DNA of 40,118 nucleotides from an uncultured Eubacteriales bacterium (GTDB lineage Bacteria > Bacillota > Clostridia > Christensenellales > Aristaeellaceae), in contig CACWZI010000019.1 in NCBI GenBank assembly GCA_902765305.1, forward strand, positions 1-40,118, in the 5' to 3' direction. The translations under genes and the position numbers were made by a program. The notes beneath the pieces were generated by a model. It was not told where the DNA came from. It did no database searches and saw only the letters and a program-made list of their open reading frames with translations. Every line of letters begins with the position of its first letter. The first letter of the stretch is position 1. Positions 1,676 through 40,006 of the stretch are shown one piece after another.

Positions 1676-1748
1676 CCCTAAGGGACTAACTTCGTGTCGC
1701 CCTTAAAGGACTAACTTCGTGTCGCCCTAAAGGACTAACTTCGTGTCG
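1676..1748 (-). repeat. Three tandem, diverged copies of the 24-bp coding module
   Basis: On the minus strand the units are at 1725-1748 (24 bp), 1700-1724 (25 bp, one extra T) and 1676-1699 (24 bp). Read in the open frame a unit gives R-H-E-V-S-P-L-G, against R-R-E-A-S-P-L-G in guaA. The extra base breaks the shared frame. This fits loss of selection on frame in an intergenic array. It directly abuts the palindromic repeats at 1749-1813. Confidence 0.85.
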
Positions 1749-6801: not shown

Positions 6802-8025
6802 ATGAATAAGATCAAGAGAACGGCACTGGTCGTCGGCGCAGGCCCTGGCGGCAGCACTGCGGCATACTATCTGGCCAAGCTCGGCGTCGACGTCCTGTTT
6901 GTGGATAAGGAAACCTGGCCCCGTGACAAGATCTGCGGCGGCGTGTACGTCCCGGCGCTCTATCCCATGCTGAAGGAAATGGGCGCGTTTGACAATATGA
7001 TGAAGTATCAGGCGTGCTCCATCACCGAATTCCGCCTCATCGACCGCGACGAGGACTACGTGGACATGAAGACCGAGCCGGCCATGATCGCCACCCGGCG
7101 CTTCACGGACGACTGGATCCGCCGCGCAGCCATCAAGGAAGGCGCGGATTTCATGGAGAACTACGAGGCCACCAGCCTTATCATCCGCAAGGGCGTGGTC
7201 AAGGGCGTGCACGGACTGTACCACAACCAGGACATGGACATCGAGGCGGACATCACCGTCATCGCCAACGGCTCCCACAGCGAGCTGACCCGCCAGCTGG
7301 GGCTGTTCCCGGACGACCCCGACCTGACGATGTATTGCTTCCGCGCCTACCTGGACGGCGTGGAGGGCCTCGCCCCCCACATGGCCGAGGAGTACTACGT
7401 GCCCATGGGACTGAACGGCTGGAGCCCGATCTGCACCACCTGGCTGAATCCCCACTACGGCGGGAAGCAGGCGGTCCTCGGCCTGACCATCACCGAGAAG
7501 GCCCTGCGCGACACGGGCCTGTCCTCCATGGAGTTCTATGAGTATTGGCGCGACAACACCAAATTCGGTCACGAGCGCCTGAAGAACGCCACCCTGATCG
7601 ACAAGTTCCGCGGCTGGCGGCTGCCCGGCTCACGCAAGCTGGGCAACGGCGTGGTGCCCGGCGCCATCGCCATCGGCGATGCCATCGGCGCGGCGGAATG
7701 CGCCTTCGAGTACGGCATTCCCTCCGCCATGACCGGCGGCATGATCGCCGCCCAGGTGATCGCCCAGTGCGCCGCGAGGGACGATTTTTCCTTCGAGGCG
7801 ACCAGCGTCTACCAAAAGCTGGCCGAGGACGCCCTCAATCCCAGCCTCGGCTTCAACGCCCTGTTCCGTGACGAGCTGCTGAACAAGGAAGACGTGATGA
7901 AGGACTTCTTCAGGTACGTCAAGGCCCAGAAGGACTATCCGAACATCATGTTCGGCGACACCGCCGCCAAGTACATGATGGAGGTCCTGCACCTGGATCT
8001 CGGCGGCAACAAGAGCAATCAGTAA
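6802..8025 (+). CDS. FAD-dependent oxidoreductase, geranylgeranyl reductase family
   Basis: The 407-residue flavoprotein starts with a dinucleotide-binding motif (VVGAGPGGSTAAYYL, ~10-24). The family signature WPRDKICGG follows near residue 40, and a second FAD motif (AIAIGDAIGAAECAFEYGI) lies near 290. Relatives reduce isoprenoid double bonds or act as FixC-like electron-transfer oxidoreductases. The substrate cannot be read from sequence. AGGAGGG upstream supports the ATG. Immediate linkage to the Fe-S oxidoreductase suggests a two-component reductase, with the upstream protein as electron donor (inference). Confidence 0.88.
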   Translation: MNKIKRTALVVGAGPGGSTAAYYLAKLGVDVLFVDKETWPRDKICGGVYVPALYPMLKEMGAFDNMMKYQACSITEFRLIDRDEDYVDMKTEPAMIATRRFTDDWIRRAAIKEGADFMENYEATSLIIRKGVVKGVHGLYHNQDMDIEADITVIANGSHSELTRQLGLFPDDPDLTMYCFRAYLDGVEGLAPHMAEEYYVPMGLNGWSPICTTWLNPHYGGKQAVLGLTITEKALRDTGLSSMEFYEYWRDNTKFGHERLKNATLIDKFRGWRLPGSRKLGNGVVPGAIAIGDAIGAAECAFEYGIPSAMTGGMIAAQVIAQCAARDDFSFEATSVYQKLAEDALNPSLGFNALFRDELLNKEDVMKDFFRYVKAQKDYPNIMFGDTAAKYMMEVLHLDLGGNKSNQ

Positions 8026-35610: not shown

Positions 35611-36383
35611 AGCCAATGAAGCAACTATCATGGTATGTCTATCGCGCGGTGTGCGCCGTGGTGCGGCGGCTCTTCCCCGCGCCGGAATTCACAGGCCTGG
35701 AGAAGCTGCCCGCCGACAGGCCCTGCATCATCGTTGGGAATCACGCCCAGGCCTACGGTCCGATCTACATGGAGCTGTATCTTCCCCGCAAGCGCGCGAT
35801 CTGGTGCATCGCCGAAATGATGCACCTGAAGGAGGTCCCCGACTATGCCTTCCGGGACTTCTGGTCAAAAAAGCCGGGATGGTGCCGCTGGTTTTACCGG
35901 CTCCTCTCCTTCGTGGGAGCGCCCGTGATCGTCTGCGTGCTGAAGAACGCCCATACGATCGGCGTTTACAGGGACAGCCGCGTGCTTAACACGATGCGCG
36001 AATCGCTGGAGCGCTTGAAGGAAGGCGCGAGCGTCGTCATCTTTCCCGAGCATGAGGTTTACCGCAACGGCCTCGTCTGGGAATTCCAGGAGGGATTTGT
36101 CAACCTGGCGCGGCTGTATTCCCGGCGAACGGGTGAGGGCATCGACTTTGTGCCGATGTATGTCGCCCCGAGGCTGCGCAGGGTGTGCTTCGGCGATCCC
36201 ATCGCCTACGACCCGGCGGCCGATCCCGGCAAGGAGGCTCATCGCGTCTGTGATGCGCTGATGGATGCCGTCACGGACCTGGCGCTCGCGTTGCCACCCC
36301 ATGTGGCTGTACCGTACCCGAACCTGCCCAAAAGCAGCTATATTTCAACAGATTCGATGAAAGGTGCCCCTGCCGGGGAATAG
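35607..36383 (+). CDS. PlsC-like 1-acylglycerol-3-phosphate acyltransferase family protein
   Basis: The 258-residue protein has the acyltransferase fold: CIIVGNHAQAYGPIYMEL (~40-57) at motif I and VVIFPEHEVYRNG at motif III. Motif I lacks the usual Asp (NHxxxxD reads NHAQAYG), and FPEG reads FPEH, so this is a divergent subfamily and its acceptor may not be lysophosphatidate. There is no long transmembrane segment. The start overlaps the upstream stop, and a PAP2-like gene begins 7 bp after its stop. Confidence 0.83.
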   Translation: MKPMKQLSWYVYRAVCAVVRRLFPAPEFTGLEKLPADRPCIIVGNHAQAYGPIYMELYLPRKRAIWCIAEMMHLKEVPDYAFRDFWSKKPGWCRWFYRLLSFVGAPVIVCVLKNAHTIGVYRDSRVLNTMRESLERLKEGASVVIFPEHEVYRNGLVWEFQEGFVNLARLYSRRTGEGIDFVPMYVAPRLRRVCFGDPIAYDPAADPGKEAHRVCDALMDAVTDLALALPPHVAVPYPNLPKSSYISTDSMKGAPAGE

Positions 36384-36390
36384 ACAGCTC

Positions 36391-37086
36391 ATGAAGCGTC
36401 CAGTCGTTGATTATCGCCAATTCCGCCTCGGGCGGTTGAATGATCCCCGCTTTGTCCACCTCCGCCTGCTGGGCGGATGGCTCGTCTACCTTGCGCTCTA
36501 CTTCATCACGGAGAATTTTATACCGCTGGAGCGCTGTCACGTCATCCACTGCGCCCTGGACGACCTGATTCCCTTCAGGGAGGGCTTTTTGATCTTCTAC
36601 TGCTACTGGTATGCGCTGCTGGCGGGATCGCTGCTGTATTTCCTGCTGTACGACATACTCAGCTTCAAGCGCCTGCAGATCTACATCATGATCACGCAGC
36701 TCGTGGCAATGGTGGTGTACATACTGTTTCCCAGCGTCCAGCTCATGCGCCCGGACAGCTTTGAGCGGGACAACCTGCTGACCCGCCTGGCGGCGTTCAT
36801 CTATGCCTTCGATACCCCCACGGGGGTGTGTCCGTCCCTGCACGTGGCCTATTCCGTGGGAATCGCCTCCGTCTGGTGCCACAGGCGTCAGAGCAGCGGG
36901 CCATTGAAGGCCTTCATGGTCCTCTCTGCCGTGGCCATCTCCCTGTCCACCGCCTTCGTCAAGCAGCATTCCGTCGTGGACATCTTTGCTGCGGTCCCCG
37001 TCTGCCTGTACGCCGAATACCTGGTCTTTGGGCGGACACGGTTGAACCGATGGATCGAGTGCAGCGACGCGAAGCTAGTCCTTTAG
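36391..37086 (+). CDS. PAP2-like membrane phosphatase, 3' end in the 24-bp repeat array
   Basis: The 231-residue protein has about six membrane helices and the PAP2 pattern CPSLHVAYSVG (~148) and STAFVKQHSVVD (~186-197), which supply the Ser/His and His/Asp catalytic groups. The N-terminal KxxxxxxRP motif is not clear. It would dephosphorylate a lipid phosphate or transfer lipid head groups. Its last residues, SDAKLVL, are encoded by the first 24-bp repeat at 37065-37088, which also supplies the TAG stop. The native C-terminus has therefore been replaced or trimmed. ATG 36391 is preferred to GTG 36364, which has no ribosome binding site. Confidence 0.85.
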   Translation: MKRPVVDYRQFRLGRLNDPRFVHLRLLGGWLVYLALYFITENFIPLERCHVIHCALDDLIPFREGFLIFYCYWYALLAGSLLYFLLYDILSFKRLQIYIMITQLVAMVVYILFPSVQLMRPDSFERDNLLTRLAAFIYAFDTPTGVCPSLHVAYSVGIASVWCHRRQSSGPLKAFMVLSAVAISLSTAFVKQHSVVDIFAAVPVCLYAEYLVFGRTRLNRWIECSDAKLVL

Positions 37087-37276
37087 GGCGACGCGAAGCT
37101 AGTCCTTTAGGGCGACGCGAAGCTAGTCCTTTAGGGCGACGCGAAGCTAGTCCTTTAGGGCGCAGTTCCTGCTTGTCGGCTTCCATATCGTCGCAAAGCG
37201 CGTCCAGCGATCCGTACTGGTCGCGGAGCTTCATATTCAGAAAGCTGAACAGGATCATCGGGTCTTTTGGCAGCAT
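36959..37276 (-). CDS. DUF4250 protein with C-terminus replaced by the 24-bp repeats
   Basis: A strong AAAGGAGAA precedes MLPKDPMILFSFLNMKLRDQ and YGSLDALCDDMEADKQEL, a clear match to the start of DUF4250 proteins (about 60 residues, function unknown). At residue 39 (37160) the frame enters the repeat array and reads RPKGLASR four times. It then runs on through sequence antisense to the PAP2 gene to a stop at 36959. The normal C-terminal ~20 residues are lost. The gene lies 35 bp after the SDR gene. It may still be expressed as a hybrid, or be dead. Confidence 0.7.
   Translation of the reverse strand: MLPKDPMILFSFLNMKLRDQYGSLDALCDDMEADKQELRPKGLASRRPKGLASRRPKGLASRRPKGLASRRCTRSIGSTVSAQRPGIRRTGRRGPQQRCPRRNAA
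37065..37160. repeat. Four perfect tandem copies of the 24-bp module
   Basis: Units at 37065-37088, 37089-37112, 37113-37136 and 37137-37160 are identical (start CGACGCGAAGCTAG, end CCTTTAGGG). Plus-strand frames read RREASPLG or DAKLVL-stop; the minus strand reads RPKGLASR. The array is the junction between the convergent PAP2 and DUF4250 genes. Confidence 0.97.
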
Positions 37277-38437: not shown

Positions 38438-40006
38438 ATGGCAAATCGGCAAGAGATCGTTATTCTTGACTTTGGCGGGCAATACACCCAGCTGATCGCC
38501 CGGCGCGTGCGGGAGTGCCGCGTCTATTCGGAGGTCGTGCCCTGGAGCGCTTCCTCGGAATCGATCAAGGCCCGCCGGCCCGCCGGCATCATCCTCTCCG
38601 GCGGGCCGGCCAGCGTGACCGACGCGGACGCGCCGCGCTGCGACCCGGCAATCTACGAACTCGGCGTGCCGGTGCTGGGCATTTGCTATGGCATGCAGCT
38701 GACCGCCGCGCTGCTGGGCGGCGGCGTGGCGCGCGCAGTGGAACGGGAATACGGCCGAGTGACGGTTCGGATGCACGAACGGGCCGGATTGCTGGAGGGC
38801 CTGTCGCCCGAATCTGCCTGCTGGATGAGCCACACCTGGCAGGTGAGCCAGTGCCCGCCGGGCTTCCGCGTGATTGCGGGGACGGATAATTGCCCCGTGG
38901 CCGCCATGGCCGACGATGCCAGGCGCGTCTATGGCGTGCAGTTTCACCCAGAGGTGACGCACACCGACGAGGGCCGGCGGATCATCGAAAACTTCGTGCT
39001 GCGTATCTGCGGCTGCGCGGGGGACTGGACGATGGACGCCTATGCCGAAACCGCCGTGGAACAGATCCGGGATATCGTCGGCGATACCGGCACGGTGCTG
39101 CTGGCCCTGTCCGGAGGGGTGGATTCCTCGGTGGCGGCGGCGCTGATCCACCGGGCCATCGGCAGCCGCCTGACCTGCGTGTTCGTCGATCACGGGCTGC
39201 TGCGCAAGGGCGAGAGCGAACAGGTATGCCGGGTGTTCAGCGAACTGTTCCCGGTGCGCTTCGTCCGCGTGGATGCCGCCGAACGCTTTTTCGACGACCT
39301 GAAGGGCGTCATGGAGCCCGAACAGAAGCGAAAGATCATCGGGCGTGATTTCATCGAGGTGTTCAAGGACGCGGCGAAGGACCTGGGCAGGCTGGACTAC
39401 TTCGCACAGGGCACCATCTACCCGGACGTGATCGAGAGCGGTCAGGGCGCCAGCGCCGCGGTGATCAAGAGCCACCACAACGTGGGCGGCCTGCCGAAGG
39501 AGCTGGGCTTTACCGAACTGATCGAGCCGCTGAGGATGCTGTTCAAGGACGAGGTGCGCGCGTTGGGCGAGGCGCTGGGCCTGCCCCGCGAGCTGGTCTG
39601 GCGGCAGCCCTTTCCCGGCCCCGGCCTGGCCATACGCATCATCGGCGAGGTGACGCCGGAAAAGGCGCAGATCGTTCGGCAGAGTGATGCCATCTTCCGG
39701 GAGGAGATCGCCGGGGCGGGCCTCGCCGGGCAGCGACGCGAAGCTAGTCCTTTAGGGGTCAGCCAGTACTTCACGGTGCTGACGGGCGTGCATTCCGTGG
39801 GCGTGATGGGGGACGAACGCACCTATGACTACACCGTCGCCCTGCGCGCCGTCACCACCGACGACTTCATGACCGCCGACTGGGCGCGCCTGCCCTATGA
39901 CCTGGTCGCCCGCGTCTCGGAGCGAATCGTCAACGAGGTGCCCCATGCCAGTCGCGTGGTGCTGGACGTGACGTCCAAGCCACCTGCGAGCATCGAGTGG
40001 GAATGA
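38438..40006 (+). CDS. guaA: GMP synthase (glutamine-hydrolysing) with 8-residue repeat insertion
   Basis: The 522-residue enzyme converts XMP, ATP and glutamine to GMP. The glutaminase domain has the nucleophile Cys83 in GICYGMQL and the FHPEV His-Glu pair. The ATP-pyrophosphatase P-loop LSGGVDSS lies at ~223, and the C-terminal dimerisation domain ends with [11 protein letters not shown]. Residues 433-440 (RREASPLG) are encoded by a 24-bp repeat. Removing them leaves AGLAGQVSQYF, the same length as AGLDREIWQYF of B. subtilis-type GuaA (from memory). GAGG 10 nt upstream supports ATG 38438 over a start at 38315. A possible IS21-like end starts 7 bp after the stop. Confidence 0.96.
39734..39757 (+). 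repeat. Single 24-bp module inside guaA, in frame
   Basis: The unit is identical to those at 37065-37160 and falls exactly on codon boundaries, reading R-R-E-A-S-P-L-G. Flanking guaA sequence is intact on both sides and the rest of the gene is open to a normal C-terminus. Confidence 0.96.

Follow-up and report, generated by a model that had tools for sequence, protein, structure and literature searches.

Results

A 24-bp insert in the GMP synthase gene

The window, a stretch of 40,118 nucleotides analysed as a whole, contains a gene for a glutamine-hydrolysing GMP synthase (guaA) whose product matches its NCBIfam model with 760 bits against a cut-off of 400. Within this gene lies a 24-bp unit that is on a codon boundary, in frame and equal to the consensus of the copies described below (Table 1); its placement is ambiguous by one base, the position one base to the left being equally possible. 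The preliminary description, made from the letters alone, had reported such a unit adding eight residues to GuaA and had noted its identity to tandem units nearby, and both observations were borne out, the tandem units being four exact copies.

Table 1. Features of the window discussed in the text.
Feature	Position	Strand	Remarks
guaA, glutamine-hydrolysing GMP synthase (host gene)	38438..40006	+	522 codons; NCBIfam NF000848
24-bp mobile unit CGACGCGAAGCTAGTCCTTTAGGG in guaA	39734..39757	+	RREASPLG, residues 433-440 of GuaA
Four exact tandem units	37065..37160	+	First unit gives TAG stop of ORF 36364-37086
Three units, GACACGAAGTTAG subfamily (G5A with C11T)	1676..1748	-	Variant copies

The suggested alignment with close relatives was made at the DNA level with the closest 12 of 29 other GuaA loci (10 from the genus and two from the family), and all 12 had 0 bases between both flanks, a clean empty site. 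The 10 genus loci show 88-90% protein identity to the GuaA of the window, and the GuaA matches of the remaining genus genomes are at about 58% identity or below. The best-scoring GuaA structure in the PDB likewise has an 8-residue gap where RREASPLG stands, and, as had been proposed, GuaA is of ordinary length without the unit. In the AF2 model (16 sequences, mean pLDDT 81.4), residues 433-440 are predicted to form a loop between a helix (407-426) and a strand (443-454), and the block containing them has a pLDDT of 64. The identification of the host gene as a GMP synthase gene stands, but its description as essential is uncertain because the same genome encodes another GuaA-like protein at C7:39076-40071, in an open frame of 442 aa with 53% identity over query 180-522.

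Copies in the genome and variation of the unit

Allowing up to 3 mismatches, the window contained 8 matches to the unit, compared with 0 in 100 shuffles. The genome of the window, G000 (a 177-contig assembly of a gut bacterium), contained 154 near-copies at the same threshold against 0 for the reversed pattern, and at least 21 exact 23-mers were among the matches listed for it; the genome search proposed in the preliminary description thus identified the unit as a dispersed repeat. Tandem arrays of 2-4 units occurred at 21 of 79 places in the G000 stretches examined. The four-unit array of the window may have shortened or re-ended the ORF that stops at the TAG within its first unit.

The ends of the unit are constant, with C at position 1 in 195 of 197 copies and G at position 2 in 196 of 197 (copies with up to 5 mismatches), and the variants group into subfamilies. 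Positions 5 and 11 covary from G-C to A-T to an extent reached by 0 of 2000 shuffles, a change that may be one inherited event, while the pair 15-24 showed no significant covariation (1250 of 2000 shuffles). The unit folds no better than its shuffles (z-scores of -0.28 to 1.92). At gathering thresholds, no Rfam family covered the unit in 10 unit-bearing loci; a skipping-rope RNA (RF02924) was found in the same genome at L094:6217-6296 on the plus strand (43.2 bits versus 36.7). Neither the 22-mer nor RREASPLG had a match in the literature text searched, and literature searches on in-frame short repeats and on Nostoc heptamer repeats gave nothing on point.

Many non-genic units are nested in other dispersed repeats and adjoin heptamer arrays such as CCTAACC/TAAAACC, and unit-free copies of intergenic host repeats are present among the matches listed. 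Heptamer arrays of TGTTCCC, TAAAACC and CCTAACC are among the commonest repeats of the G000 stretches, and an array of CCTGTTC lies at positions 45-75 of the window. Such arrays have been reported around the small dispersed repeats (SDRs) of cyanobacteria. In G025, the other genome of the genus with many copies, the count is inflated by a longer composite repeat with two units. More generally, though most of all in G025, some copies result from the amplification of larger composite repeats in which the unit sits. Another short repeat, read as EACSGAYQAPHGG, stands beside units next to L089:8445-8507 and in L092 near position 7590, so that the unit is not the only small element to enter or border reading frames here.

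Precision of insertion

Comparison with genus-mates resolved seven further insertion sites. An FGE-sulfatase/flavodoxin gene holds two of them, a histidine kinase gene one and a GH2-like ORF the remaining four, two of which consist of four units each. Together with guaA these make eight precise insertions of 24 or 4 x 24 bp, with target bases neither duplicated nor lost, save for placements that are ambiguous by a few bases. Of the other 4 places among the 11 examined, three lacked a relative carrying both flanks; at the fourth, where two units lie within another repeat inside a GH2 gene, a clean gap was not obtained. The GH2-like ORF (L090:8029-10932, 967 codons) is a hot spot, with ten units at four places (4, 4, 1 and 1) in two reading frames.

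Target-site preference

Upstream of the unit, a pyrimidine occupied position -3 in 47 of 49 independent non-cyanobacterial sites (p = 3e-12), compared with 39-63% pyrimidine at the other positions (-12 to -4 and -2) of the same sites, and insertion therefore looks targeted. G stood just before the unit in 35 of the 49 and C just after it in 31. This set, from which contexts related to a kept one, sites near contig ends or beside another unit, and the AAATCC..GGATTT family had been removed, is defined as non-cyanobacterial by exclusion and includes an Akkermansia record (L164) if that passed the filters. A larger, less strict set from all taxa, leaving out sites near contig ends, next to another unit, with N or with related contexts, had a pyrimidine at -3 in 68 of 77 sites, divided into 37 of 39 in G000, 5 of 5 in G025, 21 of 22 in other non-cyanobacterial genomes and 5 of 11 in cyanobacteria. 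The cyanobacterial sites thus departed from this rule, with 5 of 11 in the stricter analysis too; there all 11, a small number, had a pyrimidine at -2.

Insertion into hairpin loops was considered as a further target feature and is not claimed here. Outside G000, pairing of the flanks exceeded a re-paired null, with 51% versus 25% in 72 contexts from 80 exact-23-mer loci and 76% versus 45% in G025 (17 contexts); in G000 it was 36% versus 32% (67 contexts). Once related contexts were removed the loop position was not clearly special: the value at the junction was 0.37 versus 0.10-0.43 at other offsets in 30 non-cyanobacterial contexts of other genomes, and 0.24 versus 0.17-0.31 in G000.

Reading frames and effect on host genes

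One frame of the unit is open on each strand, in agreement with the open frames on both strands that had been noted from the letters. Choosing the host frame from the joined flanks by codon score gave 15 clearly genic sites among 68 distinct ones, where a stricter first version of the count gave 9 of 67; both counts excluded sites that lay too close to a contig end, contained N or duplicated the flanks of an earlier site. The joined-flank count was used in place of an earlier ORF list, which was biased toward open frames by construction. In 11 of the 15 genic sites the unit is read in one of its two natural open frames, in two it is read in other frames with changes that remove the stop, and in the last two it contains a stop. 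The frame of the histidine kinase stops within the unit, and its ATPase domain is continued in the following ORF; a GH39 frame, which spans just a part of its Pfam model, terminates at the unit as well.

As these two frames end at a stop of the unit, insertion is not harmless in itself, and the pattern of frames is read as selection after insertion. The view that the unit can enter genes without killing them holds only in part, given the two of the 15 genic sites that carry a stop. In other taxa, in-gene copies are mostly ambiguous; the clearest is in a Xenococcaceae MAG (L172 near position 263), where the unit lies in a cyanobacterial reading frame (ETVE / QIKENPYLQYFIG), which we take to be transposase-like, and supplies its stop.

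Distribution across taxa

With up to 2 mismatches, G000 contained 121 copies and G025 156, whereas the other 26 genomes of the genus contained 0-1 (one copy in six, none in twenty), and the expansion of the unit is specific to particular lineages. None of 72 family and order genomes searched at this threshold had a copy. The exact 23-mer was found in at least 115 stretches of the genome collection and recurs in Pleurocapsales cyanobacteria, Lachnospiraceae and Anaerovibrio. Among the 80 matches listed, 23 were cyanobacterial by title (Xenococcus, Hyella, Pleurocapsa, Myxosarcina and others), 16 were Anaerovibrio, Selenomonas or Selenomonadaceae, 40 had Lachnospiraceae or other Clostridia-type names, four of these being from RGIG5665 (JAFWEL01, a sheep-duodenum MAG), and one was an Akkermansia MAG. 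Thirty carrier genomes of other taxa, chosen because they bear the unit, had 1-47 copies each with up to 2 mismatches, against 0 in the reversed control. Carriers made up 2 of 291 genomes in a sample of the cyanobacterial class (the genome at the centre of the sample and another known carrier) and 4 of 398 in a sample of the phylum of G000 (G000 itself and three genomes of one family). Viral contigs gave 0 exact matches of the unit.

The exact unit also occurs outside records labelled as metagenome assemblies, in Hyella patelloides LEGE 07179 and Anaerovibrio lipolyticus DSM 3074, as well as in a Chondrocystis NIES-4102 plasmid whose description gives it as complete; a binning artefact therefore seems improbable. 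The Chondrocystis plasmid copy (L346 near position 302) and a Myxosarcina copy (L199 near position 699) have the same flanks (acgaagtttg / ctcaacgggggg), which indicates that in cyanobacteria a larger repeat carries the unit along as well. Direct descent with unchanged letters from a common ancestor of these phyla seems very unlikely; the sameness may possibly reflect transfer, or repeated production from a conserved source.

Search for mobilising genes

No mobilising enzyme was found, and neither Y1 transposases nor reverse transcriptases track the unit. Y1_Tnp matches occurred in 16 of 28 genus genomes irrespective of copy number and in 22 of the 30 carrier genomes of other taxa, the eight without a match including one with 16 copies; the records of these carriers do not state how complete the genomes are. 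Of 38 Y1 loci fetched with about 1.5 kb on each side, 0 had a unit within 6 mismatches. RVT_1 matches occurred in 8 of 28 genus genomes, including two matches in G000 and at least one in each of seven genomes with 0-1 copies, and none was found in G025 (92% complete). Among ORFs common to 80 exact-23-mer loci, none was convincing as a linked gene: the largest shared cluster (12 loci in three groups) encodes an ABC transporter and the next (5 loci) a chemotaxis receptor, both of them common families.

Discussion

Comparison with known repeats

The preliminary description had likened the outcome to that of the Rickettsia palindromic elements (RPEs). Excerpts of the published work describe RPEs in frame in unrelated protein genes, whose products are thereby decorated (PMC10969869, PMC3733652), give their size as about 150 bp (PMC10969869), and class RPE-4 and RPE-6 as palindromic REP-like units (PMC3733652). 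The likeness is real in that the 24-bp unit is inserted in frame within unrelated genes, and the stated differences also hold, since the unit is shorter than RPEs and not palindromic, with no excess folding. REP elements, as described in excerpts of PMC3733652 and PMC3116915, occur as short dispersed copies with known intragenic cases, and the unit resembles REPs and REPINs in both respects. It differs from the REP/REPIN and RAYT systems in having no GTAG or CGTC tag beside a palindrome, no linkage to Y1 genes in the 38 loci and no Y1 match in some carriers. The ends of REP or IS200 elements fold, unlike the unit. MITEs are likewise dispersed and non-autonomous, but they are far longer than the unit, which has neither terminal inverted repeats nor a target duplication.

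A closer match is offered by the small dispersed repeats SDR1-8 of Nostoc and relatives, reportedly 21-27 nt long, which Elhai et al. are said to have described in 2008. SDRs are not known outside a group of cyanobacteria, and their predicted structure is backed by compensatory changes. One of them, SDR5, enters HIP1 precisely and at a fixed point, according to an excerpt of PMC4390886. The unit shares with SDRs its length of 24 bp, its dispersal (154 near-copies) and its precise insertion, also into other repeats and next to heptamer arrays. A compensatory pair (5-11) may be a further likeness, the pair 15-24 lacking covariation and folding being like that of shuffles. It differs in occurring in Bacillota (at high copy in two genomes) as well as in Pleurocapsales, in standing in frame within several genes, in forming tandem arrays and in having a target motif of its own. 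Judged by these features, the SDR class is a closer comparison than the Rickettsia elements and should replace it. We provisionally file the unit as a variant of the SDR kind and do not count it as a member, since it occurs beyond the taxonomic limit described for SDRs and the comparison used the description of SDRs in place of their sequence tables.

A probable very small mobile repeat

With a probability of roughly 0.78, we regard the unit as a putative mobile repeat of the SDR type, very small and non-autonomous, that is inserted precisely after a YNN target without duplication or loss, a reading that draws on sequence comparison. A 24-nt copy or a head-to-tail multiple would enter precisely after YNN, often between YNG and C, and selection would retain those insertions that lie in an open frame, between genes or with stop-removing changes. 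On such a course guaA would have gained one consensus-identical copy in a protein loop, its relatives having none. The data show the dispersal of the unit, the precision of its insertion, its target preference, the pattern of frames and the lineage-specific expansion; that it is produced and inserted by an enzyme or a copying process acting in trans we infer. Our best single guess for the insertion step, and one that is more probably wrong than right, is single-stranded, HUH-like cutting and joining by a putative enzyme, suggested by the lack of target duplication together with a strand-specific short motif on one side; the lack of duplication also argues against a DDE transposase. The mechanism, described earlier as not visible, is thus visible in part, in the missing duplication and the pyrimidine at -3, although it remains true that no enzyme gene was found.

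Several other explanations compete with a mobile repeat. The idea that this GuaA lineage has long had the eight residues as a native homologous segment has practically no chance of being right, and nothing was found in its favour: clean empty sites rule it out, with exact absence in all 12 relatives tested (10 of them genus members with 88-90% protein identity), no such segment stands in the best PDB relative, and the inserted DNA is the same as that of the dispersed copies. Errors in assembling a fragmented draft, or contamination by an adaptor-like sequence, might be suspected from the 177 contigs of G000, from several copies at contig ends and from the guaA copy, which is less than 400 bases from the end of its contig. 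Whole units inserted at eight precise sites, mostly in frame, make this very improbable, as do the subfamilies of variants, the presence of the unit in the Hyella, Anaerovibrio and Chondrocystis records named above and its absence from most other assemblies of the genus. If the copies were functional sites kept by selection (for protein binding, uptake or processing) and not selfish repeats, one consensus across distant taxa would be accounted for; yet they arose by clean insertion and not by point change, their host genes are unrelated and two of these end at the unit, and most of the genus has 0-1 copies, with carriers at 4 of 398 in the phylum sample, so that we hold such a role to be improbable.

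Copying could also proceed by other routes. The unit could be copied in the course of replication or break repair, by template switching or by capture of filler DNA, perhaps with help from its mini-hairpin GC-GNA-GC, while tandems would grow by slippage. Such a route would need no dedicated enzyme and would fit the missing linked gene, the tandem arrays of exact units and the lack of target duplication. It is nevertheless unlikely in view of the constant ends of the unit, the strong target signature at one position and copy numbers that range from 0-1 to more than 100 between species of one genus. For cyanobacterial SDRs, a reverse-transcriptase route has been proposed. Spread of the unit as RNA copied into DNA in this way would be consistent with the compensatory change at positions 5 and 11 and with the two reverse-transcriptase matches in G000, but it is less likely still, as high-copy G025 yielded no RVT_1 match whereas such matches occur in each of seven genomes with 0-1 copies, and the unit folds weakly.

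Implications

Returning to the unit as a mobile repeat, we can tentatively imagine, while leaning against it, a single 24-nt selfish element that moved between phyla (Bacillota and Pleurocapsales at least) and expanded independently in each, its insertion being supplied by the host with a lineage-specific target rule (after YNN, as opposed to a pyrimidine at -2 in the 11 cyanobacterial sites). If this were true, the unit would be, to our knowledge, the smallest DNA to spread horizontally and add ready-made 8-residue modules to proteins.

If mobile, the unit would be one of the smallest mobile DNA elements known. The results suggest that a unit far smaller than ordinary transposons can enter enzyme genes (GMP synthase, glycoside hydrolases) precisely, and that more than 100 copies can be attained in one species while most of its genus-mates have none or one. 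As the same letters occur in distant phyla, the origin of such repeats is directly testable, and genus-mates with and without copies provide a natural comparison for finding the machinery.
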